A DNA stretch of 26,510 nt from a bacterium (GTDB lineage: Bacteria; BMS3Abin14), in the NCBI GenBank assembly GCA_020350725.1, contig CP070719.1, positions 567,969-594,478 of the forward strand, read 5' to 3'. Under the pieces are notes generated by a model. It made no database searches, was not told where the DNA came from, and worked only from the letters and a program-made list of their open reading frames with translations. Shown here piece after piece: positions 70 to 26,384 of the stretch (position 1 is its first letter; each line of letters begins with the position of its first letter). The translations under genes and the position numbers were made by a program.

Positions 70-1077
70 ATGGCTTCAAATGTTGAACAAAAGCCGGAAT
101 CCTCGGGAAAGGCCAGAGTCCGGTTCCTGTCCGTCGCCAAGGTGGCTGTCAGCATCCTCGTCCTGTGGCTTCTCCTTCGTCGGGTGGACCTCGGTCAGGC
201 TTTTGGTTTTCTCGCCGATAGCGGGAAAGGGCCCTGGTCTGCCGCCCTCGTTCTGGTGGTCCTGTCCCAGGCCCTTTCCTCTTTCCGTTGGCAGATTCTC
301 CTCAGGCCGCTCGGTTACAGTCTTGACTGGGTCAGGGTCCTGAAGATCTACTATATTGGCATGTTCTTCAGCCTGTTCCTTCCGTCGGTGATCGGGGGTG
401 ACGGCATCAAGACTTTTTACATCGCCGGTACCTGGAGGAGAATTCCAGCGGCCCTCTATACCCTCCTCGCCGACCGGGTCATAGGCATGACGGCCCTGAT
501 CCTGTACAGCCTCGTGGGTGCTGCCTCCGTGTGGTCGAGGGTCCCGCCGTGGATGGCGTTTTCGCTCCTGTTTGCCGTGCCGGTGATTTACCTCGTTGTG
601 GTTCTTCTGCCGCGTTTTTCTCAACCCATCCTGGACCTTAGCCGCCGCATGAGGGAGCTTCCCCGCGAACGTCTCTTCGTGTACTGGACCGATCCCACCC
701 CGGCCTTAAAGGGGTGGACTATCTCAATGGTTGTCCACCTGATGATCGTTCTTGCCCACCTCCTCATGGGGTCATCCCTCGGCCTGGACGTTCCCAAGGC
801 GGCCTGGTTCCTCATATATCCCCTGGCGGGGTTTATCTCTGTAATCCCGGTAAGCCTCAACGGGATCGGACTCAGGGAGGCCGCCTACGTCTATCTGCTC
901 GGTCTTTTCGGGGTGGGTCCGGAAAAGGCGTTCTCTCTGGGCCTCATGTGGTTCTCGATGGTTCTGATAAACGGTCTTCTGGGAGGGCTTCCATATCTTC
1001 TCGGCGGTGAGCTGAAAGTCAAGGAAGCATTGACCACAGAGAACGCGGAGAGTGATATTCCGGAATCCAGGATCTAG
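70..1077 (+). CDS. Flippase-like integral membrane protein (lysylphosphatidylglycerol synthase TM / UPF0104 family)
   Basis: Polytopic inner-membrane protein of the UPF0104 family, the fold shared with the membrane half of MprF. Members are thought to move or bind lipids or lipid-linked intermediates; the substrate cannot be read from sequence. Family-like segments are the stretch GGDGIKTFYI in the first third, LLADRVIGM soon after, and SLNGIGLREAAYVYL near the end. Hydrophobic segments fill most of the protein, and its length (about 335 residues) is normal. The start is uncertain: the frame is open from a TTG at 31 with ATGs at 52 and 70, none with a clear Shine-Dalgarno. I chose 70 because it leaves a short basic tail before the first membrane segment. 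The last 16 residues or so (ALTTENAESD...) are encoded by intergenic-type repeat DNA and are probably a recent read-through tail. It is followed in the same direction by the PaaK-like gene, 172 nt away. Confidence 0.85.
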   Translation: MASNVEQKPESSGKARVRFLSVAKVAVSILVLWLLLRRVDLGQAFGFLADSGKGPWSAALVLVVLSQALSSFRWQILLRPLGYSLDWVRVLKIYYIGMFFSLFLPSVIGGDGIKTFYIAGTWRRIPAALYTLLADRVIGMTALILYSLVGAASVWSRVPPWMAFSLLFAVPVIYLVVVLLPRFSQPILDLSRRMRELPRERLFVYWTDPTPALKGWTISMVVHLMIVLAHLLMGSSLGLDVPKAAWFLIYPLAGFISVIPVSLNGIGLREAAYVYLLGLFGVGPEKAFSLGLMWFSMVLINGLLGGLPYLLGGELKVKEALTTENAESDIPESRI

Positions 1078-1096
1078 GTTTCAGGGTCCAGGGTCT
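1032..1096. repeat. CCACAGAG-type repeat and AGGGTCC heptamer array overlapping the end of a CDS
   Basis: A CCACAGAGAACGCGGAGAG segment (from 1032) resembles the copies near 2971, 3009 and 10792. It is followed by four 7-nt units from 1069 to 1096: AGGATCT, AGGTTTC, AGGGTCC, AGGGTCT. The stop codon of the upstream flippase-like gene (TAG) lies inside this array, so its last residues are repeat-encoded. Confidence 0.7.
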
Positions 1097-1205
1097 CGAA
1101 TCGAGTTTCCTGGAACCGGATCAGGTTTTTATCGTCAGGAATGTAAAGAGCGCCGGCGGGAATAATTTGTTGTCCGTTATCTCTGTGGTAATATTTCTAA
1201 TCTTG

Positions 1206-1233
1206 AACCTTTAACCTTTATCCTTTAGCCCTG
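1206..1233. repeat. AACCTTT heptamer array
   Basis: Four consecutive 7-nt units: AACCTTT, AACCTTT, ATCCTTT, AGCCCTG. It lies 17 nt upstream of the PaaK-like start codon, where a Shine-Dalgarno would be expected; none is visible. The rest of 1097-1249 shows no other clear feature. Confidence 0.65.
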
Positions 1234-1249
1234 GACCCGGTATTCCCCA

Positions 1250-2578
1250 ATGCCCAAGACCAAACCCTTCTGGAACCCGGAAATAGAGACCATGCCGCGG
1301 CAGGACCTGGAGGCCCTCCAGGCGGATATGCTCCGGGACGTCGTGGACAGGGCCTACCGGAAAAGCCCCTTCTACCGTGATCTGTACCGGAAGGTCGGCA
1401 TTACCCCCAGGGATATCCGGTCCCTGGAGGACGTCCGCAAGCTCCCCTTCGTGGACAAGGAACTGGCCGACAGGGCCTACCCCTTCGGCATGCTCATGTG
1501 CGAGAGGTCGGAACTGCGCCAGGTCCACGCCGCCACCACTCCCAGCCGCCAGATCCTTCCCATCTGGGCCACGGAGGCGGACCTGGATCGATGGGCCGAG
1601 AGGTGTGCGCGCATCCTCTGGATGGTGGGTCTGAGGCCGGGTGAGAAACTCCAGAATGCCTTTCGCTTCGGTCTGTCCACGGGCGGATTCGGTTTCCACC
1701 TGGGCGCCATGAGGATGGGAATGACCAGCATCCCGGCCAGCATCGGCGGCACCGACCGCCAGATCGACTTCCTCGTGGACCTGGGCGTCGAGGGCATCGC
1801 CATGATGCCCTCCTACGGTCTCTTCCTCGGGATGAGGGCGCTTGAGAGGGGGATCGATCTGGGGAGGGAGTCGAACCTCAGGGTGGGACTCTTCGGGGCC
1901 GAACCCACCAGCACCCGGATGAAGACCAGGCTGGCCGAGCTCCTGGGCATCAAGGCCTACGGGGAATACGGCATGAACGAGTTCCTCGGCCCCGGCATGG
2001 CCTGCCATTGCCCCTTCAAGAAGGGCATGCACGCCTGGGGGGACCAATTCCTGGTCGAATGCATCGATCCCGGAACCGGAGAGCCGGTTGCCGAGGGGAA
2101 CTCGGGCGAGCTGGTCTGGACGTGGCTCAGCGCAGAGGCCACGGCGGCCATCCGGTTCAGGAGCCACGACATCTCCAGGGTGGTCTGGAAACGGTGCCGC
2201 TGCGGCCGAACCCACCCACGGGTGCGGCGCATATCGGGCCGGACCGACGACGCCCTGTCCATCGGGGGCTTCGTCATCTACCCCTCCCGGCTTCAGGACG
2301 TCATGGCCCTCTTCCCGGACGTGGGACCCTTCCAGGTGATCCTCGACTCCGTCAAGGGTCTGGACGATTTCTCCATAAGCGTCGAACTCCGGAAGGGCGC
2401 CGAGGTCGACGAGAGGGCCCTGACGGATAGGATCCGGAGCGCCGTCTGCTCCTACCTGGTGTGCACGCCCAGCGTCCAGGTCGTACCCGCGGGGAGCCTT
2501 GGACTCTCGGAGGCCGACCCTCCCTTCCGGATCATCGACTACCGGAGGTTCAGTGGGCGGTACGGAGCTGAGGAGTGA
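1250..2578 (+). CDS. Phenylacetate-CoA ligase (PaaK)-family protein with degraded ATP-binding motifs
   Basis: Homologue of the PaaK / coenzyme F390 synthetase group of adenylate-forming enzymes (442 residues, normal length). Family landmarks: N-terminal YRKSPFYRDLY (36-46), KLPFVDKEL (64-72), YGEYGMNEFLGPGMACHC in the middle, then IRFRSHDISRV, SGRTDDALSIGGFVIYPS and a C-terminal PFRIIDYRR. Two catalytic elements are abnormal. The glycine-rich phosphate loop, normally HASSGTTGxP, reads HAATTPSRQI (93-102) with no glycine. The C-terminal catalytic lysine normally found before RVIDxR is absent (DPPFRIIDYR). Adenylation is therefore doubtful; it may be a non-catalytic or repurposed member. It has no Shine-Dalgarno, so the start could also be the ATG at codon 15. 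It lies downstream of the flippase-like gene, with no obvious functional link. Confidence 0.8.
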   Translation: MPKTKPFWNPEIETMPRQDLEALQADMLRDVVDRAYRKSPFYRDLYRKVGITPRDIRSLEDVRKLPFVDKELADRAYPFGMLMCERSELRQVHAATTPSRQILPIWATEADLDRWAERCARILWMVGLRPGEKLQNAFRFGLSTGGFGFHLGAMRMGMTSIPASIGGTDRQIDFLVDLGVEGIAMMPSYGLFLGMRALERGIDLGRESNLRVGLFGAEPTSTRMKTRLAELLGIKAYGEYGMNEFLGPGMACHCPFKKGMHAWGDQFLVECIDPGTGEPVAEGNSGELVWTWLSAEATAAIRFRSHDISRVVWKRCRCGRTHPRVRRISGRTDDALSIGGFVIYPSRLQDVMALFPDVGPFQVILDSVKGLDDFSISVELRKGAEVDERALTDRIRSAVCSYLVCTPSVQVVPAGSLGLSEADPPFRIIDYRRFSGRYGAEE

Positions 2579-2614
2579 TCTCTGTTCACTTCGGACGCGG
2601 GGGAAAATGTGTCC

Positions 2615-2642
2615 AGAGTCCAGGGGCCAGAGTCCTGAGGGG
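2615..2642. repeat. AGAGTCC/AGGGGCC heptamer array
   Basis: Four units in register: AGAGTCC, AGGGGCC, AGAGTCC, TGAGGGG. The first two units recur identically and in the same order at 26219-26232, 23.6 kb away. Confidence 0.7.
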
Positions 2643-2656
2643 GCGAAGGGGCGGTA

Positions 2657-2766
2657 GGGCCCTTCGACAAGCTCACGGCAGGCAGGGCAGGCGAGGAACA
2701 GAAGCGGGGACGCAGGGAGACGGGGACGCGATAGGGCGACAGGGCGAGGGGGAGAGGGGGAGAAGG
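2657..2766. repeat. GACAAGCTCA motif and purine-rich GGGGACGC repeats
   Basis: CCCTTCGACAAGCTCACGG (from about 2660) is followed by GGCAGG repeats and by degenerate GGGGACGCAGGGAGAC-type units running into a GGGGGAGA purine tract. GAGCTTGTC, the reverse complement of the first core, also appears at about 13987. No coding signal is visible. Confidence 0.5.
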
Positions 2767-2781
2767 ATATATCGTTCTAAG

Positions 2782-2865
2782 AGATAAGTGATAAGAGATA
2801 AGTCTACTGAGCGGTTACTTATCACATATCACTTATGTACTTGGGACTCAGCTCTCAGTTAGTGC
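2782..2865. repeat. Inverted pair of AGATAAG / ACTTATC heptamer arrays
   Basis: The left array is AGATAAG, TGATAAG, AGATAAG (2782-2802). The right array is ACTTATC, ACATATC, ACTTATG (2817-2837), approximately its reverse complement, so the two could pair as a hairpin around a 14-nt spacer. Heptamers continue with TACTTGG, GACTCAG, CTCTCAG and TTAGTGC to 2865. Confidence 0.7.
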
Positions 2866-2970
2866 CTGGGACGTGGAACGCGTATCACCGGCAACGGGGA
2901 CCTAGGGACAAAAGACGGTTGTCATTGCGAACCGGAAACTGCGTGAAACAATCCCGATGATAATAACCTT

Positions 2971-3027
2971 TACCACAGAGGACCACGGAGGCGTCCCTTG
3001 AGACGCTACCACAGAGGGCCACAGAGT
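2971..3027. repeat. ACCACAGAGG repeat, two copies around a short inverted repeat
   Basis: ACCACAGAGGACCACGGAG and ACCACAGAGGGCCACAGAG are separated by GCGTCCCTTGAGACGC, whose ends GCGTC and GACGC are complementary. Related sequence occurs at 1032 (inside a CDS tail) and 10792. Confidence 0.55.
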
Positions 3028-3039
3028 TGATTTTATTTT

Positions 3040-3250
3040 GGATTTTGGACTTTGGATTTTGGATTCGTTGACTAATCACGAATCACAAGTCACCAATCAC
3101 GGCGGTTCCAACCGTGAACCGTGAACGGTCTTTTTGGATTTTGGACTTTGGACTTTGGATTCGATACTTAATCACAAATCACGAGTCACCAATCACGGCG
3201 GTTCCAACCCTAAACTGTGACCGGGGAACTGTGAAACGTGAACTGTCCTT
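3040..3250. repeat. Composite heptamer module, tandemly duplicated with 96-bp period
   Basis: Copy 1: three GGATTTT/GGACTTT units (3040-3060) plus GGATTCG, four AATCACN/AGTCACC units (3074-3101), the bridge GCGGTTCC (3102-3109), then two AACCGTG units. Copy 2 repeats every element exactly 96 nt later: GGATTTT at 3136, AATCACA at 3170, GCGGTTCC at 3198, then degenerate AACTGTG units. The AATCACN-GCGGTTCC-AACCGTG part recurs at 26265-26384. From here to 3566 I see nothing else definite. Confidence 0.8.
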
Positions 3251-3566
3251 TTTTAGAATTCCCAACCTAAAGGATAATACCGACAGAACTAACGTCAAGT
3301 ACAGCTTGACACTTACGGTAGATCGAATTTGTTTTATTTAAAAGCTGTTTGGGAAGCCTGATTTGCCTAAGCCTCCATTTTCAGGCGGTATTTTTTCACT
3401 TGGCAGGACTTCAAATGATGTGTTTCCTCCTCGGATAAAATAGCATTTTACTCTTGCAAACCGGGGGGGTACTCGCTATACTTGGCCACTCATGCTGATA
3501 CCAGAATCGGCGTCGGGGTGGGGCGCCACGGGTCCTTTACCACTTGTAAAGACAGGAAAAATCGGC

Positions 3567-3595
3567 TTGACATGGATATTGTGAAGTGCTAATTT
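3567..3595 (+). promoter_or_regulatory. Sigma70-type promoter for the 3839 outer-membrane protein gene
   Basis: TTGACA (3567-3572), a 17-nt spacer, TAATTT (3590-3595). It predicts a 5' leader of about 240 nt. The same -35, spacer length and -10 occur at 6952-6980 before the second outer-membrane protein gene. Confidence 0.6.
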
Positions 3596-3838
3596 TTCGG
3601 GAAATTGAGCCTCGGGGAGGGTGATCCGGGGGAAGAAAATCCGGACCGTGTCTATTCGCCGCATTGCGGAACCGTATTCATTTCGGTCACGGCCCGGTTC
3701 ACGGATAAAATAGAGAAAGGAAACCAGAGGAAAGGAGGGGATAGCGGGGTTCCCAAAGACACATCCGATCTACCATTTCGTGTTCAATCGACTAGTTACT
3801 AAGCATGTTCAACCTCATACTTCTTTAAGGAGGGAGAT

Positions 3839-5059
3839 ATGAAGAGATTTTCCATTTTACTGTTGGCCCTGGCATTCGCGGTTGCCATTGCCGCTCCCGC
3901 CATGGCCGTCCACGAGGGATCCCTCGACACGGGTCCGCCTCCGGCCGACATGGAGGAGGGATGGGCCATGTACGGGGACTATACTCTGGATGCAGAGGAC
4001 TATACCCACCGGACCGACGCTCAGACCCAGTGGTACGACGACGAGTTCCAGTTCGTCATCATGGTGGACCGCGGCCCGGTGACAGCCACCGTGGACCTTG
4101 AAGTCTCCGACGATGAGAATTTCGAGGGAAGCGGCAAAGCCAGGACGGGGGACCTCGTTGACAACTACTTCGTCGTGTACGACGCCGGCGCCAGGGTCGA
4201 GGGCCTGAGCTTCAAGGTCGGCGAGTTCGGCAATTCATTCCATTCCAAAGCCATCTTCTACTCCGAGGGCGGCCACCAGATCGGTGCTATATACAGTGCC
4301 GATTTCGGTAAAGTCGGTCTCTACCTGGGCAAGAAGGACGAGACCAAGTCGGATCCCGACGCGGATGATGACCTGATCACGTTTACCCTCGACATCGCCA
4401 AGTCGATCGACTTCTTCAAGAGCCTGGACTTCATCTACGCTTCAGGTTCTAACGAGGTCACCGCCGGTTCGGAGTACGATTACAGCTTCTTCGGCGGCTA
4501 CGCAGCTTTCGACATCGGTCCTGTTCCCATAACACTGGAGATGGGTTCAGTTAGTGATGATAGAGATCCGGATACTGTGGGTGGTAACGACGGCGGCCAG
4601 TATTTCTATATGACCGCCGGTTTTGACGAGTTCGTCGGCTTCGACCTGAACCTCGAATACTACAATGCTAACGAGGATCATGGTACCATGACTTTCGGTG
4701 ACGACGACTTCTTCCCCCTCATGATCTACGGCTTCCGGAGCGGCGACAATGAAGCCCTTGCGGACGTCGATCTGATCATGGTCAGCGCCTCCTACGCGGT
4801 GAGCGACTTCCTGACCCTGAAGGGCAAGGTCCTCGTCGCCGGAGACGAGGGTAACGCGGTTGTTAACGACGACGATGGATTTGCCGACTATACTAACACC
4901 AATGACAGTGTTGGAACCGAGATCGACGTTCACGCCATCATGAAGTGGGCCGGCAACGTCACCTCCACCCTGACCTACGCCACCTGGAGCCCGGGCGACG
5001 GCTACACGCCCGACGACACCGCTACCGACATCCGCCTCAGGACGGTCTTCAGCTGGTAA
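3839..5059 (+). CDS. Secreted acidic outer-membrane beta-barrel protein (porin-like)
   Basis: 406 residues with a Sec signal peptide: basic MKRF, a hydrophobic core, and an AMA cleavage site near residue 23. The mature part is rich in Asp, Gly and aromatic residues, with alternating hydrophobic stretches (VEGLSFKVGEFGNSF, QIGAIYSADFGKVGLYLG, ASYAVSDFLTLKGKVLVAG). It ends in RLRTVFSW; a C-terminal aromatic residue is the usual signal for BAM-dependent insertion. An AAGGAGGG Shine-Dalgarno lies about 5 nt before the ATG. Strong promoter, strong Shine-Dalgarno and a dedicated terminator suggest an abundant, monocistronic protein. The exact porin family and the cargo cannot be named. The surface-like repeats of D/E (SDDRDPDTVGGNDGG, VVNDDDGFADY) could bind cations, which is speculation. 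Confidence 0.85.
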   Translation: MKRFSILLLALAFAVAIAAPAMAVHEGSLDTGPPPADMEEGWAMYGDYTLDAEDYTHRTDAQTQWYDDEFQFVIMVDRGPVTATVDLEVSDDENFEGSGKARTGDLVDNYFVVYDAGARVEGLSFKVGEFGNSFHSKAIFYSEGGHQIGAIYSADFGKVGLYLGKKDETKSDPDADDDLITFTLDIAKSIDFFKSLDFIYASGSNEVTAGSEYDYSFFGGYAAFDIGPVPITLEMGSVSDDRDPDTVGGNDGGQYFYMTAGFDEFVGFDLNLEYYNANEDHGTMTFGDDDFFPLMIYGFRSGDNEALADVDLIMVSASYAVSDFLTLKGKVLVAGDEGNAVVNDDDGFADYTNTNDSVGTEIDVHAIMKWAGNVTSTLTYATWSPGDGYTPDDTATDIRLRTVFSW

Positions 5060-5084
5060 AAAACGCCATCTTGAGCTGTTCGAA

Positions 5085-5115
5085 GGGTCCCGCCGTCCGG
5101 CGGGACCCTTTTTTT
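5085..5115 (+). terminator. Rho-independent terminator
   Basis: Perfect 10-bp stem GGGTCCCGCC / GGCGGGACCC with a GTCC loop, followed by seven T. It lies 26 nt after the stop of the beta-barrel gene. Confidence 0.93.
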
Positions 5116-5523
5116 GTCCATGCTAAGACCCCTAACCGCGGCGTGGGCCGGACGACGGAAGGGCAGCAGAAGGATAGGCAGGGGTTGAAATAGAAACGGG
5201 AGAGGTAATGGCGGGTGTTCGAGTATGGACTGTGTGAGTGGGGAGAAGGGGAGTCTATGGCGAACGACCCTGGATGCCGGGAAGGCGATATCGCGGCGGG
5301 GAGTCACCCGTTTGCCTTGGTCTCACACCTTTGGCCTACCCCGGTGTCGACCATCCCTGCCCAGCCCGACAGGAGGCTGCGGCAAATTGAGGGGCGGTTT
5401 GTCCGTGGAATCATCCCCGTGGTCCGACCAGACGAGATCCTGTATGAAAGGGCAAGGAGAGGGCCTCCCTGCCGTCCCGGGACGGAAAGGATGGACGCGG
5501 CCTTTGGAACAACGGCGTGGGTT
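5116..5523. other. Intergenic stretch with no supported gene
   Basis: About 400 nt between the terminator and the 3' end of the small minus-strand Cys-rich gene. The open frames here have no Shine-Dalgarno or recognisable protein features. No heptamer array or clear promoter is visible. Confidence 0.5.
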
Positions 5524-5799
5524 CTAGGGAGAAACGGTGGCCGGTTTTCTCACCGGACCGGCTGGAAGGGGAACGGCGGTGGACGGCTCTTTGCCGATGC
5601 CGACGGCGGCCCGGGAGGGGCAGGTGCACAGGTAGGTGTTGCCGAAGGGGCACCGGAAAGCGCATGCATTGGCCCTCGGGCCCCGCTCGAGGCACACCAT
5701 GAAGTTCCTGTTGCCGATGTTGCCCGTGGTGCAGGGCCCGTCGGCGCTCTTGCTGGACGGTTTACCGCCCGAGAAGTATCGGAAAAAACCCACCTTCAT
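5524..5799 (-). CDS. Small cysteine-rich hypothetical protein
   Basis: 91 residues; not a family I recognise. The N-terminus is MKVGFFRYFSGGK. The core contains six cysteines: PCTTGNIGNRN, VCLERGP, ANACAFRCPF and YLCTCPSR. A proline/alanine-rich tail follows. Support for coding: codon third positions are overwhelmingly G or C, as in the sure genes here, and the cysteine motif looks structured rather than random. The spacing (CxxxC, CxC) could bind metal or form disulfides. No signal peptide is obvious. The Shine-Dalgarno is weak (GCGGGG, about 2 nt before the ATG). It is divergent from the small gene at 6008. The overlapping plus-strand frame (5215-5823) looks like a shadow. Confidence 0.55.
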   Translation of the reverse strand: MKVGFFRYFSGGKPSSKSADGPCTTGNIGNRNFMVCLERGPRANACAFRCPFGNTYLCTCPSRAAVGIGKEPSTAVPLPAGPVRKPATVSP

Positions 5800-6007
5800 T
5801 ACCCCGCTTTGATGCTAAGATAGGATCCGCCGCATGCCGGAGCCCCCCCGGGCCGCCGGAACATACATGTGGCGAGACGCTCTTGTATAGAATTTATCTT
5901 CCGAATGCAAGCAAAATATTCCGGGGCCGGGCAATGGCTGCCGGGGCCTTTTTAGACCGGGATCGGCGGGTTAAACATACGACAGATACGGGAAGGGAGG
6001 TTTTGAA

Positions 6008-6274
6008 ATGTCAGGTGGATTGGAGAGGGCCCGGTTGGGGGGAGGGAAGGCGTTCCTGTTGGGTGTCCTGACGGCGGCGGCCGTCCTCGTCCTCCTCGGG
6101 GCCGGGCCGTCGGGCAACGGCGGACCCTCCTATCAGGTCACGTCGTCGACCACGGGAGCAGGCCGCGTCGTGGTCCACATCGTGGACACGTCCACCGGCG
6201 AGACCAAGGTGGTGTCCAACGGGATCAGGAGCCAGTACGGTGTGACCTTCGGGGAGATGGCGGCGGATCTGTAG
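6008..6274 (+). CDS. Small membrane-anchored hypothetical protein
   Basis: 88 residues with a good Shine-Dalgarno (AAGGGAGG, 5993-6000). One hydrophobic segment, about residues 15-33 (AFLLGVLTAAAVLVLLGAG), is either a signal anchor or an uncleaved signal. A 50-residue exported domain follows, with a beta-strand-like RVVVHIVDTSTGETKVV and a C-terminal QYGVTFGEMAADL. Short secreted proteins with a VHIVDTSTGETK-like strand pattern are common, but I cannot name a family. Upstream (5886-5891) there is a TATAGA that could be a -10, without a convincing -35. Confidence 0.65.
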   Translation: MSGGLERARLGGGKAFLLGVLTAAAVLVLLGAGPSGNGGPSYQVTSSTTGAGRVVVHIVDTSTGETKVVSNGIRSQYGVTFGEMAADL

Positions 6275-6303
6275 GGCGGGAAAAAGGGTTACCAGGAGCC
6301 GGG

Positions 6304-6331
6304 ATTCAGCAGTCCGTATTCGGTATTCAGC
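6304..6331. repeat. ATTCAGC/ATTCGGT heptamer array
   Basis: Four units in register: ATTCAGC, AGTCCGT, ATTCGGT, ATTCAGC. It starts 29 nt after the stop of the small membrane protein gene. It is related to the TTCAGTA/TACTGAA family found at 14600, 17764, 18214 and 22711. Confidence 0.65.
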
Positions 6332-6403
6332 AAAACATCGAAGATCGACTCCTGAAATCAGCTCTCGGCGTAACGGTTACCTCTTTCCCGGAGTAGTGCA
6401 AAA

Positions 6404-6639
6404 TATGCGCAAGAAGGGGTGGACTGCCATGGTTTGCGCAGAAAGTGCGCGCTTAATCTGGAACCATTTTCGATACGTGGAGGGAGAAAGCCGTTTCAAA
6501 TCAACCCATTACGGAATTGGACACCTGTTGGCATACCGGTTGCAATATTCCGGGCGAAGGCTCCTTTCTCACCCCGGTGCCCGGCAGCGGCAAACCCTTT
6601 CTCCCCTCCTTAAACCCTGCCGGGTAACCGGGACTTTTT
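6404..6639 (+). other. Structured non-coding stretch, possible small RNA or leader
   Basis: There is no convincing gene here. TGCGCAA (about 6406) can pair with TTGCGCA (about 6435), and GCGCA/TGCGC forms a tight hairpin with loop GAAAG. The stretch ends in a long terminator-like hairpin (separate entry). I found no match to a riboswitch consensus I know, and no clear promoter. Confidence 0.3.
6573..6639 (+). terminator. Long terminator-like hairpin followed by T run
   Basis: CCCGGT (6573-6578) pairs with ACCGGG (6627-6632), and CCCGGCAG (6580-6587) pairs with CTGCCGGG (6617-6624). That gives 14 bp with one small internal bulge and a 29-nt pyrimidine-rich loop. AC then TTTTT follow (6635-6639). 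The nearest upstream gene ends 300 nt earlier, so it may end a separate transcript. Confidence 0.6.
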
Positions 6640-6691: not shown

Positions 6692-6946
6692 AGATCCAAA
6701 ATCTAAGATCCGAAACCGGTATATGCAATGTTCTGTTGCTCTGATCTCTAATGCTCCAAACTCCAATGGCTGATGTTCCAATTTCTAATACTCCAATCTC
6801 CAATCTCCAATGTTCTAATGCTCCAATGCTCTCATCTCTAATGTTCTGATCTCCAATCCTCCAATGTTCTAACCTCTGATACTCTATTTTCTAATGCTCT
6901 ATTGCCTGATGCTCCCATTCCCCCCGCCTGACGCTCTCACCCTCTA
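6692..6946. repeat. AGATCCA heptamers and long TCTAATG/CTCCAATG 7/8-nt array
   Basis: AGATCCA, AAATCTA, AGATCCG, AAACCGG occupy 6692-6719. From about 6731 to 6946 there are some 25 degenerate 7- or 8-nt units of the form (A/G)AT(G)(C/T)TC(C/T). The same family is at 15244-15369. The array ends only 6 nt before the -35 of the next promoter. Confidence 0.8.
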
Positions 6947-14053: not shown

Positions 14054-14079
14054 AATTTTCTCCGGAAGGAGAAAATTTC
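14052..14079 (+). other. Perfect 12-bp hairpin after the tRNA duplicate
   Basis: GAAATTTTCTCC, loop GGAA, GGAGAAAATTTC. There is no T run after it. It may be a processing or transcription signal, or a by-product of the duplication. Confidence 0.7.
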
Positions 14080-14167
14080 AGTTTGTAGTTTCTAGTTTCT
14101 GGTTTCTAGTTAATCATATGATCCAGATCATCAAGTATTCTAAACCCTAGACACTAGAAACAGTTTT
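14080..14167. repeat. Facing AGTTTCT and CTAGAAA heptamer arrays
   Basis: Left array 14080-14107: AGTTTGT, AGTTTCT, AGTTTCT, GGTTTCT. Right array 14140-14160: CTAAACC, CTAGACA, CTAGAAA, the approximate reverse complement. A 32-nt spacer lies between. It fills the gap between the tRNA-Lys duplicate and tRNA-Glu. Confidence 0.7.
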
Positions 14168-14526: not shown

Positions 14527-14624
14527 GTATCGGGGTATGGGAGTATCGGGGTATCGGAGCTCCAAGAGTTTTTCACTCCCGTTGTTTGATTCTTCTGGAT
14601 ACTGAATACTGACTCCTGAATACC
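14527..14624. repeat. GTATCGGG and TACTGAA heptamer arrays
   Basis: About four 7/8-nt TATCGGG/GTATGGG units lie near 14527-14560. TTCTGGA, TACTGAA, TACTGAC, TCCTGAA lie in register at 14593-14620. The second array ends 15 nt from the stop codon of the convergent SYLF gene. Confidence 0.65.
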
Positions 14625-15243: not shown

Positions 15244-15369
15244 ACTCTAATGCCCAATGACGCCAATGTCTAATCTCTAATACTCCAATCTCTAATGCTC
15301 CAATGCTCTAATCTCTAATGTTCTAATCTCTAATGCTCTATTATCTCATTCCCCATCTCCTATCTCTTC
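15244..15369. repeat. Long TCTAATG/CTCCAATG 7/8-nt array
   Basis: About 15 degenerate units (TCTAATCTC, TAATGCTC, CAATGCTC and similar) fill the whole space between the SYLF gene leader and the end of the GT39 gene. It is the same family as 6731-6946. The GT39 stop codon (TAG on the minus strand) falls inside the edge of the array. Confidence 0.8.
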
Positions 15370-17741: not shown

Positions 17742-17763
17742 CGGATTCTCCTTTAATATTAAA

Positions 17764-17798
17764 GTATTCAGTAGTCAGTATTAGGTATTCAGTATAGA
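17764..17798. repeat. GTATTCA heptamer array overlapping a CDS end
   Basis: Five units: GTATTCA, GTAGTCA, GTATTAG, GTATTCA, GTATAGA. The four-helix-bundle gene reads into it: its last codons (ILNT and stop) are repeat sequence. An inverted copy of the same family lies beyond the other end of that gene (18214-18237). Confidence 0.75.
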
Positions 17799-18143
17799 TT
17801 TAGTCAATGATTCCAGCAGTTTACTCACCTCTTCGATCTGTGATTCCAAGGTAATGATGTCGCCGTAGCCAAGATCCTCTGCAAGTATAAGATAATATTT
17901 GCATTCCTCTATCGAACCTTGTGCAATATTCATATACCGGGCTTTATCCACCTGTGATCTTTTCTTGAACCCTTCAGCGATATTTGCCGGGATCGATATT
18001 GCTGCTCTCCTGAACTGGGATGTCAGGCTGTACATCTCTGATTTTGGGAATTGGCTACTGAGCAAATACACGGATAGGACAAATCGATGTCCCTTTTGCC
18101 AGACAATCAAGTCCCGGAAACTTCTCGCAGGTTCTCTCACCAT
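17781..18143 (-). CDS. Four-helix-bundle protein (23S rRNA intervening-sequence / bAvd-like family)
   Basis: 120 residues with the full family pattern: FRDLIVWQKGHRFVLSVY, FPKSEMYSLTSQFRRAAISIPANIAEGF, IAQGSIEECKYYLILAEDLGY and a C-terminal helix. The family was found in intervening sequences of 23S rRNA genes and is related to the Avd accessory protein of diversity-generating retroelements. Members pentamerise and are often genomic orphans, as here. A good Shine-Dalgarno (GAGGAGG, 6 nt) and a dedicated promoter are present. Base composition looks clearly AT-richer than its neighbours, suggesting transfer. The gene is bracketed by inverted heptamer arrays. Confidence 0.93.
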   Translation of the reverse strand: MVREPARSFRDLIVWQKGHRFVLSVYLLSSQFPKSEMYSLTSQFRRAAISIPANIAEGFKKRSQVDKARYMNIAQGSIEECKYYLILAEDLGYGDIITLESQIEEVSKLLESLTKSILNT

Positions 18144-18187: not shown

Positions 18188-18213
18188 AAAATGAACCCGG
18201 TTCTAAAGTTTTT

Positions 18214-18237
18214 TCCTGAATCCTGAATACTGACTTC
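18214..18237. repeat. TCCTGAA/TACTGAC heptamer array, inverse of 17764-17798
   Basis: TCCTGAA, TCCTGAA, TACTGAC in register. The reverse complement of 18216-18235 matches 17773-17792 at 17 of 20 positions without gaps. The array ends 6 nt from the stop codon region of the AEC transporter gene. Confidence 0.75.
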
Positions 18238-18243
18238 TCGTTG

Positions 18244-19753: not shown

Positions 19754-19776
19754 CCCTTCTTCGGAATCCCAACGGA

Positions 19777-19999: not shown

Positions 20000-20047
20000 T
20001 TAGACCGGCACTTTTCCAGCCAGTTTCTCTTTGCGGTTCTTGTCCAT
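20000..20047 (-). CDS. Possible 15-residue peptide with strong Shine-Dalgarno
   Basis: On the minus strand, GGAGGTGA lies 9 nt before an ATG that opens MDKNRKEKLAGKVPV and a stop. An alternative ATG overlapping the Shine-Dalgarno would give a 34-residue product starting MEVKRLW. The peptide is very basic. There is no other evidence; it could be a leader peptide or chance. Confidence 0.25.
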   Translation of the reverse strand: MDKNRKEKLAGKVPV

Positions 20048-20169
20048 AGTCTTTTCACCTCCATGTGGTATAAGAGAGATAGCCCTTGAATCAGTCTTCG
20101 CATGTGGAAAACGGGTGTCCGGGCGAGAAAGCGATCACAGGCCGCGACGAATTATTATATTGAAATCCG

Positions 20170-22698
20170 ATGAAGCCATTGGAGCATTCGGTATCCGACC
20201 GCCTCTCCCCTGAGGCTGCCCGCATCATGAGGGAGGAGATCCACCTCTGCAGCGGTCACGAGATCTTTTTTATCGGTCGGACGCAGGAGGGTGTCGTCGT
20301 GGAGGCCGAACCCATAGCGAGGGGCAATTCCGAGGCTGTTCCGGCCGTGGCCGAGACGGCAGGACCCGGCGACGTTCTGATCCACAACCACCCCACCGGC
20401 ATCCTGGTCCCCTCGGAGGCCGACATCGCAGTGGCTTCAAGGTACGGTGGGCTGGGAATCGGATTTTACATCATCGACAACGACGTCTCCCGTCTCTATC
20501 CAGTGGTCGAGCCCCGATCCTCCGAGTCCGCTCCTGAGCCCCTCGATCCATCCCGCATATCCCACCTTCTCGGCCCCGAAGGCCCTCTTGCCGAGGTCCA
20601 TCCCACCTACGAACCCAGGGAGTCCCAGTGTCGAATGGCGGCCGATATCACGGCTGTCCTGGAAGGCGGCGGAGTGGGTGTTCTCGAGGCCGGTACGGGA
20701 ACGGGGAAAAGCCTGGCATACCTTATCCCGTCGGTCCTCTGGTCCCTGAGGGGAAAACGCAGGGTCGTGGTGTCCACCAGGACGATCAACCTTCAGGAGC
20801 AGCACCTCGAGCAGGACCTGCCCCTGGTCAGGAAGATGCTCGGGGAGGACTTCAGGGCGGTCATCGTCAAGGGAAGGGGCAATTATCTCTGTCTGCGAAA
20901 GAGGGATATGCTGGACACCGATTCGGGGGAGGTCCTCCTCGAGTTCGACGACGTGCAGGAGATGAGAGAGCTTCTCCACTGGAGCAGGAACACCTCGGAC
21001 GGAAGTCTATCCGACCTCCCTTTCGTGCCCGGGGACAGCAACTGGGAGCTGTTGAGGGCCGAATCGGATTCGTGCCTGCGGGCCCGGTGTCTGAACTTCT
21101 CAGCATGTTTTTTCTACAGGGCACGGGTCGAGGCGGCCTCGGCCCAGATCCTCCTGGCAAACCACCACATTCTCTTTGCCGACCTCGCCCTTCGCGTTGG
21201 AGGGCACGAAGCGGCCGCCATTATGCCCCGCTACGATGCAGTGATCCTGGACGAGGCCCACAACGTTGAGGATGTGGCCCTCTCCTATTTCGACGCCAGC
21301 GTGGGGAGGTATGGTCTGCTGGGCCAGTTCGGGCGCCTCGTCAGCAGACGGAGATCCGAGAGGGGCCTCATACCCTTTCTCCTGAAAAGGATCCCCGCCC
21401 TGAAAGGTCTTAAGGGTGACAGGGGCACGGAGATCCTCACCCTCGCGACCGATGTTCAAGCCGGGATAGGTGCGGGGCGAAACCGCCTGGACAAGCTCTT
21501 TGAGGATCTTGCCTTCTCCTTTTCGAGCTGGCTGGGCAGGGGGGATACCGGCGGGGACAACCGGTGGCGAGTGCCCCCTGAGAGGCGGGAGGAAGGCCAG
21601 TGGCAGGACATCGGTGCACTGCTGACGGAGATGTCGGGCCTCATCGGTGACACGGCAGCGCCTCTGCGCAGGATCACCCGAAGGCTGAAGGACCTGGTCG
21701 AAGACGGCTTCGAGGAGCTTGCCGGGCTGTGGAGCGATATCGGGGCGGTCGTCAATCGTCTGGATGGGGCGGTCGATCTTCTCAACAGGGTCAGGAGGGG
21801 TGAAGAGGAAGGGGAGGTCTTCTGGGTAGAGGTCAGGAGGAGGAGGGGTCGATCGGTGGTCAACCTGCACCTGACGCCCCTTGAGGCCTCAGAGATCCTC
21901 AGGAACACCCTCTTTGACGCGGTGGGAAAGGTGGTGATGACCTCGGCGACGCTGACGGTCGGCGGCTCCTTTCAATTCCTCAGGGAGCGGCTGGGACTTG
22001 ATCAGATCCCCGGCATGGAGGTTATTGAGGAGATCTACGCAAGCCCCTTTGACCTCTCCGACCAGATGCGCCTGGCGATACTGAACGATCTTCCCGAGCC
22101 GGGGACGGATGGCTTCGTCCGGGGTATGACCAATGCGGTAAAGGGGATCGTCCGAGCATCCGAGGGCGGGGCCCTTCTGCTCTTCACTTCCTACCGGACG
22201 CTGGATGCCGTGTTCGAGCAATGTGCTGAGGATCTCGCCGCGGAAGCACTCCCTCTGGCGCGACAGGGAGACGCACCCCGGACGGCTCTGCTGGAGAGGT
22301 TCCGGACCGAGAGCAACCTGACTCTTTTTGCCACCGACAGCTTCTGGGAGGGCGTGGACGTGGTGGGTGATTCCCTTCGCTGTGTGGCCATCGCCCGGCT
22401 TCCGTTCCCCGTCCCCACCGATCCACTGGTTGAGGCACGGGGTGAGTCCCTCCTCCGCCAGGGCAGGGATCCCTTCATGGAGGATTCCGTGCCGAGGGCC
22501 GTGATCAGGCTGAGGCAGGGAGTCGGTCGCCTGATAAGACATCGTGAAGACCGGGGATACGCCATCATCTGTGACACAAGGATCCTTAAGCGGGCGTATG
22601 GTCGGATTTTCCTTGCGTCCTTCCCCGAGGAATGTCTGGAGTGGGGAAGCACGGAAAAGATTGCTGCCAACATGAAACGTTTTTTGGAGAATAATTGA
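20170..22698 (+). CDS. DinG/XPD-type DNA helicase fused to an N-terminal JAMM (RadC/JAB-like) domain
   Basis: 842 residues. The N-terminal 110 form a JAMM metalloprotease-like domain with E31 (GHEIFF), H72 and H74 (HNHPTG), S82 and D85 (PSEAD), a complete zinc-site signature. A superfamily 2 helicase of the Rad3/DinG group follows: Walker A GTGTGKS (175-181), four cysteines C241, C302, C307 and C313 spaced as for the 4Fe-4S cluster of XPD-like helicases, DEAH (361-364), and C-terminal motifs SATLTVGGSF, LFATDSFWEGVDV and QGVGRLIRHREDRG. A 5'-3' DNA helicase role is likely (R-loop or replication-fork repair for DinG). The JAMM part could cut a peptide or act as a docking domain. The Shine-Dalgarno is weak. 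Confidence 0.92.
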   Translation: MKPLEHSVSDRLSPEAARIMREEIHLCSGHEIFFIGRTQEGVVVEAEPIARGNSEAVPAVAETAGPGDVLIHNHPTGILVPSEADIAVASRYGGLGIGFYIIDNDVSRLYPVVEPRSSESAPEPLDPSRISHLLGPEGPLAEVHPTYEPRESQCRMAADITAVLEGGGVGVLEAGTGTGKSLAYLIPSVLWSLRGKRRVVVSTRTINLQEQHLEQDLPLVRKMLGEDFRAVIVKGRGNYLCLRKRDMLDTDSGEVLLEFDDVQEMRELLHWSRNTSDGSLSDLPFVPGDSNWELLRAESDSCLRARCLNFSACFFYRARVEAASAQILLANHHILFADLALRVGGHEAAAIMPRYDAVILDEAHNVEDVALSYFDASVGRYGLLGQFGRLVSRRRSERGLIPFLLKRIPALKGLKGDRGTEILTLATDVQAGIGAGRNRLDKLFEDLAFSFSSWLGRGDTGGDNRWRVPPERREEGQWQDIGALLTEMSGLIGDTAAPLRRITRRLKDLVEDGFEELAGLWSDIGAVVNRLDGAVDLLNRVRRGEEEGEVFWVEVRRRRGRSVVNLHLTPLEASEILRNTLFDAVGKVVMTSATLTVGGSFQFLRERLGLDQIPGMEVIEEIYASPFDLSDQMRLAILNDLPEPGTDGFVRGMTNAVKGIVRASEGGALLLFTSYRTLDAVFEQCAEDLAAEALPLARQGDAPRTALLERFRTESNLTLFATDSFWEGVDVVGDSLRCVAIARLPFPVPTDPLVEARGESLLRQGRDPFMEDSVPRAVIRLRQGVGRLIRHREDRGYAIICDTRILKRAYGRIFLASFPEECLEWGSTEKIAANMKRFLENN

Positions 22699-22710
22699 GA
22701 GCAAAAGCAT

Positions 22711-22738
22711 TCAGTAGTCAGGGTTCAGTATTCAGGGA
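22711..22738. repeat. TCAGTAG/TCAGGGT heptamer array
   Basis: TCAGTAG, TCAGGGT, TCAGTAT, TCAGGGA in register, starting 13 nt after the helicase stop codon. An AT-rich stretch without features follows (22739-22899). Confidence 0.7.
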
Positions 22739-22899
22739 ATCGGATCAGAATTATTTAATATCAAAGGCTATAACGAAGAAAATAAATACATATGCATTTA
22801 AATATCAAAAGATTTTCTACTTATAAATTCTTTTATACCGAAATACTGACTAAAGAATCCTGGGTACTAAGCTACATCTGAACACTTCAGACAAAACGG

Positions 22900-22929
22900 T
22901 TGACTTTTCCCCGAGGGGGAGGTTATAAG
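22900..22929 (+). promoter_or_regulatory. Promoter of greA
   Basis: TTGACT (22900-22905), an 18-nt spacer, TATAAG (22924-22929); alternatively TTATAA after 17 nt. Transcription would begin about 22935-22937, at the first base of the hairpin described next. Confidence 0.65.
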
Positions 22930-22935
22930 AACTTG

Positions 22936-22966
22936 ACTCCACCCGCACAGCGGGTGGAGTATTTTT
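22936..22966 (+). terminator. Terminator-like hairpin at the start of the greA transcript
   Basis: Perfect 11-bp stem ACTCCACCCGC / GCGGGTGGAGT with loop ACA, then ATTTTT. It lies 59 nt before the greA ATG and directly after the promoter, so it is an early attenuator rather than a terminator of the helicase gene, 238 nt upstream. Confidence 0.8.
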
Positions 22967-22973
22967 CGTAAAA

Positions 22974-22996
22974 CCTTCCTCGCGGAAGGGATTTTT
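22974..22996 (+). terminator. Second terminator-like hairpin in the greA leader
   Basis: CCTTCC / GGAAGG stem (6 bp, loop TCGC), then GATTTTT. It lies 7 nt after the first hairpin and 12 nt before the greA Shine-Dalgarno. Confidence 0.6.
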
Positions 22997-23024
22997 ATGT
23001 GAGCGCCAAGGAGGGCAAGTTAGG

Positions 23025-23498
23025 ATGACGAGGCACCCAATGACCCCGGAGGGCCTGCAGAAGCTCAAGAGTGACCTGAAGAGGCTGAAAACCCAGGACC
23101 GGCCCAAGGTCATAGAGGAGATCGCCGAAGCGAGAAGCCACGGGGACATCTCCGAAAACGCGGAATACGACGCCGCCAAGGAGAGGCAGGCCTTCATCGA
23201 GAGCCGGATCCGGGATATCGAGATCAAGATCGCCAACGCTCAGGTCGTCGATCCCCTCGACATGGATACCGACCGGGTGGTGTTCGGTGTGAACGTCACC
23301 GTTCAGGACCTCGAATCGGGAGACAAACTCAGCTACCAGATCGTCGGGGCGGACGAGGCCGATGTGGCCTCCAGCAGGATCAGTGTCACCTCGCCCGTGG
23401 CAAGGGCCCTCATTGGGAGAAGGGTTGGCGACGTCGTCCAGGTGCAGATTCCGAGGGGACTGAGGGAGCTCGAGATCATGGAGATCTCCCTGCCATGA
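23025..23498 (+). CDS. greA: Transcription elongation factor GreA
   Basis: 157 residues. It rescues backtracked RNA polymerase by stimulating transcript cleavage through the secondary channel. The N-terminal coiled coil has the tip motif HGDISENAEYDAAKERQ (acidic D and E that reach the active site); the C-terminal FKBP-like domain has LSYQIVGADEAD, ISVTSPVARALIGRRVGD and VQIPRGLRELEIMEI. The length is normal. The Shine-Dalgarno AAGGAGGG is 9 nt before the ATG; an ATG at codon 6 is a possible alternative start. It has its own promoter with two hairpins in the leader. Confidence 0.96.
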   Translation: MTRHPMTPEGLQKLKSDLKRLKTQDRPKVIEEIAEARSHGDISENAEYDAAKERQAFIESRIRDIEIKIANAQVVDPLDMDTDRVVFGVNVTVQDLESGDKLSYQIVGADEADVASSRISVTSPVARALIGRRVGDVVQVQIPRGLRELEIMEISLP

Positions 23499-23502
23499 CA
23501 AA

Positions 23503-23578
23503 ATAGTCCAACGTCTTATGTCCAAAGCCCAAGGTCCATAGGCCGTGATCAGTGATTCGTAATTCGTGATTTGTACTT
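23503..23578. repeat. TCCAAAG and CGTGATT heptamer arrays
   Basis: Degenerate TCCAACG, TCTTATG, TCCAAAG, CCCAAGG, TCCATAG units are followed by CGTGATC, AGTGATT, CGTAATT, CGTGATT, TGTACTT (23544-23578). The second part is the AATCACG family in reverse orientation. It starts 5 nt after the greA stop. Confidence 0.7.
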
Positions 23579-23651
23579 AAAGTACCTGTTGCTAGTTAAT
23601 AAAATATCTTTCCATGAAGATTTATTTAGGATTTTTTCGTATGCCTTTACC

Positions 23652-23757
23652 AACCACGAATCACAAATAACGAATTACGGTCTTAAATAACTCCAAACTG
23701 TAAACTTTAACTTGATTTACGAATCACCCATCACCAATTACAAATCACGAATCACGG
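23652..23757. repeat. AATCACG/AATTACG heptamer array facing 23544-23578
   Basis: AACCACG, AATCACA, AATAACG, AATTACG (23652-23679), then AAACTGT, AAACTTT, AACTTGA (23695-23715), then ATCACCC, ATCACCA, ATTACAA, ATCACGA, ATCACGG (23723-23757), almost all in one 7-nt register. With 23544-23578 it forms an inverted pair around 73 AT-rich nt. Confidence 0.75.
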
Positions 23758-23881
23758 TCATTCCCCCTTTCCTTTACAATGCAACTCCCATCCATTAATC
23801 TTTAGAGGAGCGTTCCGACGACCCCGATCCTCAGCGATCCAGGACGGCCGGTTTGCTCTTGAGACGACCGGGGAAGCGAGG

Positions 23882-23925
23882 CGGCGGACTGCGGCCGGTC
23901 TCCCCAGCCTCAGACCGGACCGCCG
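23882..23925 (+). other. GC-rich two-part hairpin upstream of the P-II gene
   Basis: CGGCGG (23882-23887) pairs with CCGCCG (23920-23925), and CCGGTCT (23895-23901) pairs with AGACCGG (23912-23918). A possible small RNA or leader element. The rest of 23758-24195 shows no gene. GGCACG at 24028 followed by GTTC is only a poor sigma54-like match. Confidence 0.35.
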
Positions 23926-24123
23926 TCCATCCTCACATCCCCCTTCTCCCGATGGACATGCCTACCTCAACCGTGGAAGCGGTTCCCGTTCATCGGTCCC
24001 GTGAGGGTCGATTTTGCCTAACCTGTAGGCACGCGATGTTCGATGTGACGTTTATTTAGGCAGGAAGGGGGAGGCCAATGCCGGATGTCACCGGTAAAAT
24101 ATCTCATAAATTCATGTAGATAG

Positions 24124-24534
<411 letters not shown>

Positions 24535-24577
24535 CGCCGGTCGGCATGAAACTCACGTAAGGATTGGAGGTTTTAAG

Positions 24578-25996
24578 ATGACACCGAAAGAGGTACTGGA
24601 TTTTGCCCAGAAGAACGGGATCAAGATGGTTGACCTCAAATTCATGGATCTGCCCGGGACATGGCAGCACTTCGGGGTGCCCATCAGCCAACTGGAGGAG
24701 AGCAGTTTCGAGGACGGTTACGGGTTCGACGGGTCATCCATCCGCGGCTGGCAGCCTATCCACGCCAGCGACATGCTGGTGATCCCGGATCCATCCACGG
24801 CACAGATCGATCCCTTCATCAGCTCTCTGCCCACCCTTTCCATGATCTGCAATATCGTGGATCCTGTCACCAAGGAACCCTATACCAGAGATCCGAGGTA
24901 CGTGGCGCAGAAGGCTGACGCCTACCTCAAGTCGACCGGCATCGGCGATGCGGCCTATTTCGGCCCCGAGGCCGAGTTCTTCATCCTGGACGACATCCGG
25001 TTCGACCAGAATGCCCACTCCGGTTATTTCTTCCTGGATTCCAAGGAGGGGTGGTGGAACACGGGCCGGGATGAAGGCCCCAACCTGGGTTACAAACCAC
25101 GGCACAAGGAGGGGTATTTCCCCTGCCCACCGACCGACAGCCAGGTCGAAATCCGCCATGAGATGGTCAGGATCATGGAGGAGGCATACGGCATAGAGAT
25201 CGAGGCCGAGCACCATGAGGTGGCAACAGCGGGTCAGGCTGAGATCGACATGAAGTACGCCCCCCTGGTTCAGGCCGGCGACAACCTCATGCGGTTCAAG
25301 TACGTGGTCAAGAATGTGGCCCGCAGGTTCGGTAAGACGGCGACCTTCATGCCCAAACCCGTCTTCCAGGATAACGGATCCGGTATGCACGTGCATCAGA
25401 GCATCTGGAAAGGTGACAAGCCCCTTTTCGCCGGGGATCGGTACGGCGGGTTGAGCGAGATGGCCATGCACTATATCGGCGGCATCCTCAAGCATGCGCC
25501 GGCTCTGTGCGCCCTGACCAATCCAACCACGAATTCCTACAGGCGGTTGGTGCCCGGATACGAGGCGCCCATCAACCTGGTTTACTCCTCCCGTAACCGG
25601 AGCGCCGCTGTGAGAATTCCTCTCTACTCGGCCAGTCCCAAGGCCAAGAGGATCGAATTCCGGACGCCCGACCCCACCTGCAACGGCTATCTGGCTTTCT
25701 CGGCCATGCTCATGGCCGGCCTGGACGGGATCGAGAACCGGATCGATCCGGGTGAGCCCCTTGACAAGAACATTTACGGTCTTTCCCCCGAGGAGCTGGC
25801 CCAGTATCCCAAGGCCCCCGGTTCCCTTGAGGAGGCTCTTGATGCCCTGGAGAGGGACAACGATTTTCTCCTCAAGGGCGATGTATTCACAACGGACCTT
25901 CTCGAGATGTGGATCTCGTACAAGAGGGAAAATGAGGTGGATGAGGTCAGACTCCGCCCCCACCCCCACGAGTTCGCCCTGTATTTCGACATCTAG
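24578..25996 (+). CDS. glnA: Glutamine synthetase, type I
   Basis: 472 residues (normal GSI-beta length). It joins ammonia and glutamate with ATP and forms a dodecamer. Key blocks: the N-terminal beta-grasp with [11 protein letters not shown] and [13 protein letters not shown] (the Asp latch), metal-binding [55 protein letters not shown], and the [17 protein letters not shown] block. The adenylylation tyrosine is Y400 in NIYGLSPEE, equivalent to the E. coli NLYDLPPEE site, so covalent control by GlnE is expected. The Shine-Dalgarno is GGAGG. It is an operon with glnB. Confidence 0.98.
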
Positions 25997-26064
25997 GACA
26001 AAGGTCTATCGCGGAGGACGCGAACGAAGCAAAGGAAAGTGATTTTTCATTTTATTTATCCTAT

Positions 26065-26088
26065 CTCTTAGCACTTAGCTCTTAGTCC
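26065..26088. repeat. CTCTTAG/CACTTAG heptamer array
   Basis: CTCTTAG, CACTTAG, CTCTTAG in register, then TCCTTGT. It lies about 70 nt after the glnA stop, between the gene and its terminator-like hairpin. Confidence 0.65.
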
Positions 26089-26122
26089 TTGTTTTAAAGT
26101 TCCCTGGCCGTCTCAGGGACTG

Positions 26123-26154
26123 AAGGGGGAGGCCGCTTCGGCGGCCTCCCCCTT
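26123..26154 (+). terminator. Strong hairpin after glnA
   Basis: Perfect 14-bp stem AAGGGGGAGGCCGC / GCGGCCTCCCCCTT with a TTCG tetraloop, preceded by a smaller TCCCTG/CAGGGA hairpin at 26101-26119. The T run is very short, so termination is likely but not certain. It may act on both strands between convergent genes. Confidence 0.75.
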
Positions 26155-26218
26155 CTCCAGTCGAGAGTCCACCCGCCTGCGCGGAAAGGACATGCGGACA
26201 GGGGAGGGAAATGAGTCC

Positions 26219-26245
26219 AGAGTCCAGGGGCCAGGGTCCAGAGGG
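26219..26245. repeat. AGAGTCC/AGGGGCC heptamer array, second copy
   Basis: AGAGTCC, AGGGGCC, AGGGTCC, AGAGGGA in register. The first 14 nt equal 2615-2628. Confidence 0.7.
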
Positions 26246-26264
26246 AGGGGAACTAGTCTTTTCG

Positions 26265-26384
26265 AATCACAAATCACGAATCACAAATCACGGCGGTTCC
26301 AACCGTGAACCGTGAACTAATCTTTTCGAATCACAGATCACGAATCACTAATCACGGCGGTTCCCACTGTGAACCGTGAACCTG
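26265..26384. repeat. Composite AATCACG-GCGGTTCC-AACCGTG module, tandem with 64-bp period
   Basis: Copy 1: AATCACA, AATCACG, AATCACA, AATCACG, bridge GCGGTTCC (26293-26300), AACCGTG twice. Copy 2 starts 64 nt later (26329): AATCACA, GATCACG, AATCACT, AATCACG, GCGGTTCC (26357-26364), CACTGTG, AACCGTG. The order of parts is the same as at 3074-3123 but without the GGATTTT part. It ends 8 nt from the stop codon of the next gene. Confidence 0.8.

Follow-up and report, generated by a model that had tools for sequence, protein, structure and literature searches.

Heptameric repeat arrays between the genes of a BMS3Abin14 bacterium are probably the arms of small mobile S23 elements

The stretch of DNA analysed here, in the following called the window, comprises 26,510 nucleotides of a bacterium of the GTDB lineage BMS3Abin14 (assembly GCA_020350725.1, contig CP070719.1, positions 567,969 to 594,478), the genome of which is one contig of 2,777,163 bp. 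Its intergenic DNA holds tandem arrays with a period of 7 nt, in some cases 8, 14 or 15, which were located by Tandem Repeats Finder (TRF) and span positions 1066 to 26381. Between two protein genes it also carries a gene for an S23 protein, and this gene is bracketed by an inverted pair of such arrays (Table 1). We consider it likely that the heptad arrays are the arms, paired or orphaned, of small mobile elements to which S23 genes belong.

At lag 7 the autocorrelation of the window's intergenic DNA reaches 0.326, where Markov-1 shuffles give 0.256 (z 12.4), and harmonics appear at lags 14 and 21; its coding DNA has the codon period only and no lag-7 signal. The genome-wide counts rest on evenly spaced stretches, 800 kb in total, and the shuffle check was done on a 400-kb half of these. 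This half contains 131 lag-7 runs against 0 in the shuffles; at each of the remaining lags between 4 and 13 there are 0-17 runs. Intergenic DNA, just 15% of the total, contains 179 of the 185 lag-7 runs (97%) found in the 800 kb. The sequence AACCGTGAACCGTG occurs 25 times in the genome and its reversed control 0 times. About 16 recurring unit families, with CCAGAGT, AATCACG, AACTGTG/AACCGTG, GGATTTT and AAGTGAT in the lead, cover most of 251 arrays, and the five largest account for 178. Related genera, relatives from the same family included, bear heptad arrays with other units, the maximum being 32 runs per 100 kb in the genome G008, and the AATCACG unit is also present in a few distant genomes and, with ten to sixty matches per genome, in five relatives. 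The lag-7 excess and the intergenic placement stated in a preliminary description of the window were thus both found again. The many unrelated unit families of that description are indeed diverse but not open-ended, and its reservation that the arrays might be limited to this contig does not apply.

The two arms of the window element are complementary in 17 of 21 positions (the second arm taken at 18214-18234) and in 21 of 28 over a longer alignment. No rRNA match was found anywhere in the window, and the element does not lie inside a 23S rRNA gene. The S23 protein has a relative of solved structure in PDB entry 2gsc (E 4.7e-18); this entry and that of another relative, 2rld, contain five chains each, and the S23 protein of Xanthomonas campestris has been described as a toroidal homopentamer (PMC4990558). 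The genome has 3 S23 genes, two of them with heptad arms, the units of which are CAGTATT in the window and AGTCCAG in the other element (G000:1248024).

The association between S23 genes and inverted arms was examined across lineages by requiring that both arms show a period of 6-9 nt and match as complements in 20 or more of 28 positions. Of 69 full-length S23 loci from relatives and unrelated lineages 50 have such arms; the controls give 32 of 1000 for mismatched pairs of flanks and 5 of 230 for ordinary small genes from this genome, which is itself rich in arrays. Another five S23 loci, obtained at a later stage with a different aim, all have such arms too, and a simpler alignment test concurs (24 of 48 S23 loci, 0 of 150 controls). 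The unit differs from locus to locus, and at most loci the two arrays flanking the S23 gene are reverse complements of each other.

The explanation proposed by Mrazek and co-workers, as cited in passages of PMC4679880 and PMC4692102, is polymerase slippage, by which any stretch of 7 nt, a length favoured by the polymerase, can be duplicated and expanded. It would account for the varying number of units among arrays, for the diversity of unit sequences and, as these passages have it, for the fact that in many genomes no other long simple repeats are as common as heptamers. Slippage does not, however, make inverted partners around one gene family or disperse some 16 families across a genome, and it should make any gene an equally likely neighbour, in conflict with the figure for ordinary genes given above. 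Long simple sequence repeats in the usual sense have direct units in variable number, no inverted partner and no link to a gene, whereas inverted partners and a link to S23 are what we find. Nor would slippage as sole cause give clean insertions, empty sites, or the whole arm pairs which are inserted between close plasmids (see below), and we regard it as very unlikely.

In another model a Y1 transposase, either a repetitive extragenic palindrome (REP)-associated tyrosine transposase (RAYT) or an IS200-like enzyme, moves REP-like heptad hairpins and S23 is a passenger. Y1 transposases act on hairpins, and they occur in 14 of 16 S23-bearing genomes, with two in this genome. Among Y1 loci taken from S23-bearing genomes only 1 of 20 has such arms, unlike the S23 genes, and the incomplete assemblies G010 and G011 have S23 elements and no Y1 match. 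Furthermore, the unit follows the S23 lineage, as shown below. The Y1 family alone was examined among transposases and gave no transposase with matching ends; ends shared with gene-less copies were found on S23 genes only. The Y1 model is in our opinion quite unlikely.

That S23 elements come and go can be seen in plasmids. The S23 genes of plasmids from Nostocales, Picosynechococcus, Geminocystis and Azospirillum all have arms directly at the gene, and because many of the plasmids are near copies of each other empty sites can be found. Trichormus variabilis has an insertion of ~430 bp, with GTAAT on both sides, compared to the 98% identical Nostoc linckia. In a Nostoc operon S23 occupies one gap in L206 and L244 and is missing there in L237, L238, L239, L240 and L245; gap 1 of the operon holds gene-less inverted GTCAGGA arrays in L237, L238, L239 and L244 and is empty in L206, L240 and L245. 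The GTCAGGA unit is common to the S23-bearing and the gene-less copies. L237 and L244 carry a second gene-less element within the first, and a third gap is taken in L245 by another S23 element, with GGGAAAA as its unit. In Picosynechococcus PCC 7003 an S23 element lies between cas10 and cmr3 (L208 plasmid, 1400-1930), and PCC 7002 is without it. Decay is found at L236, where one arm and the S23 fragment LIVWQKAHQFILLVCQFSSEFPKSEIYA are left and the other arm is gone, at a site which elsewhere is empty or filled. Direct flanking copies are GTAAT (5 bp) at site A and ATG (3 bp) at L245, and none are clear elsewhere. The copies in gap 1 are short, gene-less, inverted, multicopy, and present or absent at one site, as are miniature inverted-repeat transposable elements (MITEs) and REPINs (REP doublets forming hairpins).

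These plasmids also bear on the idea that the arrays are cis-regulatory or RNA-processing repeats maintained in place by selection, for instance sites for a translational regulator such as TAACTGA in Beggiatoaceae. The strictly intergenic position and the good folding of the hairpins would suit such a role, and MacGregor (2015) saw TAACTGA repeats directly ahead of start codons. But the same gap is filled or empty in plasmids that are 90-98% identical, the unit varies at like sites, elements are nested, and one genome can have many unit families, all of which makes this the least probable of the explanations considered.

Further evidence comes from the units themselves. Among 26 non-redundant period-7 elements unit similarity rises with S23 identity when the units are read on the coding strand (Mantel r 0.41, p 0.0002), and is unrelated to it on the opposite strand (r 0.00). 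Since the unit tracks S23 identity on the coding strand only, its orientation is of consequence, and the unit changes along with the protein. The 5' arm on this strand is purine-rich and C-poor (A.335, G.327, T.224, C.114). The joint change fits what would be expected if the S23 protein recognises its repeat unit, and we infer from these sequence comparisons that it probably does. The period is 7 in 37 of 50 S23 elements, 8 in 10, 6 in two and 9 in one. The earlier claim of one process which fixes unit length and leaves the sequence free holds in part, but the length is not absolute and the sequence is not free.

Retrotransposition by a host reverse transcriptase has also been considered, with S23 acting like the Avd protein of diversity-generating retroelements. 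S23 is homologous to Avd (PMC10053308), the bAvd model (PF22296) gives a weak match, below cut-off, to the window protein, and upstream neighbours favour the S23 strand (33 vs 17). However, RVT_1 is absent from 11 of 16 S23-bearing genomes, this complete genome included, and a reverse transcriptase was rejected as the cause; retrotransposition is thus unlikely. Changes in arm pairs lean towards G-U without reaching significance (103 vs 80, p 0.10), which argues against retrotransposition, and the G-U excess was discarded as a signature of RNA pairing. The preliminary description suggested looking for a co-occurring reverse transcriptase, transposase or polymerase. A co-occurring gene does exist, but it encodes an S23 protein and neither a reverse transcriptase nor a transposase.

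We return to the S23 elements and to the dispersed arrays of this genome. Both S23 arm units of the genome are also two of its dispersed families, and the AGTCCAG family is the commonest of all. The genome's own S23 units match 66 of the 251 arrays compared to 15 for foreign units (p 0.017), and ten S23 units from the host's family match 183 (73%) compared to 44 (p 0.0005), where the p-values are rough since the arrays are mutually non-independent. The same comparison in G008 gives 19 of 79 vs 5 for own units and 33 of 79 vs 10 for family units. Folding was tried with gene-less inverted pairs, three from the window and five from other places, and most of them give far better hairpins than their shuffles (z -1.6 to -9.8).

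Apart from this non-independence a number of observations weigh against S23 elements as the source of the arrays. The 3 S23 genes stand against ~600 arrays when the sample (185 per 800 kb) is extrapolated to the genome, and no S23 relics were found among the sampled arrays outside the window. Neighbouring arrays in the sample have the direct orientation (23 cases) more often than the inverted one (15 cases), and most lie in composite blocks. Arms could not be detected at 19 of the 69 full-length S23 genes, one genome (G019) has S23-like genes and no heptads, and another (G058) has heptads and no S23 gene over the cut-off. Duplication of the target is apparent at no more than one or two sites, and no enzyme for integration of the element was found. 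That inverted pairs are the rule in this genome was rejected on the count of neighbours, and it is this count which leads to the reading as orphaned arms: single arrays and composite direct blocks would be arms that have lost their partner and have been spread further by duplication.

Table 1. Heptad arrays, S23 element and related features of the window
Feature	Position	Strand	Evidence and remarks
S23 gene (23S_rRNA_IVP, four-helix bundle), sole gene of the element	17781..18143	-	PF05635, E 6.7e-36
S23 element arm, unit CAGTATT	17760..17796	+	TRF (17763-17795), lag-7 run; overlaps 3' end of S23 gene
Second S23 element arm, TCCTGAATCCTGAATACTGACTTC	18210..18242	-	TRF, lag-7 run, complementarity to first arm
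Gene-less inverted pair, GATAAGA / TCTTATC types	2778..2836		11-nt gap; 18/21 complementary; strong hairpin, RNA fold z -5.26
Gene-less inverted pair, AGTTTCT / AGAAACT	14076..14165		30-nt gap; 16/21 complementary; RNA fold z -2.51
Inverted arrays, one GTGATTC-type and two AATCACG-type arms	23545..23760		19/21 and 18/21 complementary; RNA fold z -2.58
TTCAGTA-type array, unit family of window S23 arms	22710..22737	+	TRF
TACTGAA-type array, unit family of window S23 arms	14595..14623	+	TRF
Composite block, 2 x 96 bp: GGATTTT, AATCACG, AACCGTG arrays	3036..3224		TRF, direct pairs
Composite block, 2 x 64 bp: AATCACG and AACCGTG arrays	26250..26381		TRF
TCCAGGG array, family CCAGAGT = L158 arm unit (S23 element G000:1248024)	1066..1095	+	TRF
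GTCCAGA array, family of L158 arms	2611..2639	+	TRF
GAGTCCA array, family of L158 arms	26213..26243	+	TRF
TAACCTT array	1198..1227	+	TRF
TCTAATG/CTCCAATG array, 7/8 units mixed	6737..6914	+	TRF
TCTAATC/CTCCAATG array, 7/8 units mixed	15263..15340	+	TRF
Octamer array GTATCGGA, same unit type as the L285 (G008) S23 arms	14527..14559	+	TRF
CTTAGCA array	26067..26085	+	TRF

A complete element measures about 430-510 bp and consists of a 5' arm with some five to six units of 7 nt, a single S23 gene (PF05635) and a 3' arm which is an inverted copy of the first. Gene-less forms retain their arms on either side of a short spacer, and further decay would leave single arms and composite blocks. The S23 protein, whose relatives of solved structure contain five chains, may grip the repeats with one register per ~7 nt; such a grip would keep the unit length constant and let the sequence drift along with the protein. 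Pairing of the arms may take place in RNA or in single-stranded DNA, comparable to the rRNA intervening sequences cut by RNase III, and RNase III may excise the element from messages as it does from rRNA. In an array that already exists, slippage may add or remove units.

S23 genes in rRNA intervening sequences, the homology of S23 and Avd, and heptamer arrays explained by slippage or regulation were all known before. The intervening sequence of Coxiella burnetii has an S23 open reading frame, a length of ~430 nt and complementary ends that form a 28-bp stem, and it lies in helix 45 of 23S rRNA (PMC4990558); S23 genes are also known from intervening sequences in rRNA genes of the candidate phyla radiation (PMC11270868). 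The S23 elements resemble these but are inserted between genes. The likeness lies in the one S23 gene, the size of ~430 nt, the complementary ends and the sporadic, horizontally acquired occurrence (PMC4990558); the differences are the position between protein genes, the arms built of tandem 7-mers, the gene-less derivatives and the high copy number. REPIN/RAYT systems and MITEs likewise include small inverted elements without a gene, which are believed to be moved in trans and have their arms in common with a gene-bearing relative, but here a transposase with matching ends was not found and the arms are 7-nt tandem arrays. With diversity-generating retroelements they share a homologous four-helix bundle protein (bAvd), and differ by the lack of a reverse transcriptase in this genome.

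Judged by description, the degenerate 7-mer arrays between genes are like the short tandemly repeated repetitive (STRR) sequences of cyanobacteria and the heptamers GGGAATC / GGGGA(T/C)T of Xanthomonas and Nostoc, in which close inverted array pairs number 70 in X. campestris pv. campestris (Xcc) and 75 in X. axonopodis pv. citri (Xac); in the passages of PMC4692102 dealing with these arrays no gene or mobile element is named behind them. The preliminary description rightly pointed to the likeness to STRRs and to a host which is not a cyanobacterium, yet cyanobacterial plasmids bear arms of the same kind, and it is there that arrays were found present and absent in orthologous gaps of close strains, the comparison which it had suggested. 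XCC0516, the Xcc S23 protein of structure 2GSC, has no close match in the 386 genomes searched; we predict that its gene lies between GGGAATC arrays. The TAACTGA repeats of Beggiatoaceae, proposed to be translational control sites, are likewise arrays of heptads between genes and occur scattered among distant phyla, but they have a single unit and are nearly all direct (PMC4679880). A published link between S23 and heptamer repeats was not found in the open-access literature, which is no proof that there is none.

More tentatively, and with slightly less than even confidence, we suggest a categorically distinct class of mobile elements in which the S23 ring recognises ~7-nt repeats and causes insertion without a transposase or reverse transcriptase of its own. 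The arms would then be the source of most bacterial heptamer repeats (STRRs, GGGAATC, perhaps TAACTGA), with rRNA intervening sequences as a special habitat. The reading of the arrays as arms of S23 elements, which does not depend on such a class, would by itself explain a kind of bacterial repeat which has lacked an explanation since about 1990 and join two old puzzles, the dominance of heptamers among long bacterial simple repeats and the role of the poorly understood S23 protein of rRNA intervening sequences. If arms and protein belong together both can be tested in one go: annotated genomes list S23 genes under the name 'four helix bundle protein', and the arms can be read off beside them. 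Heptad arrays would be scars of insertion and could serve as markers of mobility. An S23 gene next to another system may be a passenger, as between cas10 and cmr3 in L208; lists of CRISPR-linked domains which name the 23S rRNA IVP (PMC10910872) may reflect passengers.

Some minor observations should be mentioned. G019 has nineteen S23-like matches (L191, L202, L229-L231), mostly as head-to-head inverted pairs around an A/T-rich hairpin, which is perhaps another arrangement of S23 elements. Locus L256 of G058 has long GGCAAGA and GGCAGTA heptad arrays. In G010 a 197-nt AATCACN array (L269, 1832-2028), of the window's own unit family, adjoins an S23 gene on one side only. Octamer arrays GACGCGGG/GACACGGA and GGGGCGAT are found beside heptads in the window (2728-2763) and in other stretches of this genome (G000), and GACACGGA-type arms occur on S23 elements of G011 and G009 (L280, L272). 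Runs of 100 N in one-contig genomes (L013, L015, L025, L151), some inside array-rich gaps, may represent masking or assembly gaps. Finally, the palindromes TTGTCATTGCGAACCG...GTGAAGCAATC and CCACAGAGG...CCACAGAG are present at 2870-3035 of the window and in many gaps of L011-L026, in a fixed order relative to the heptad arrays.

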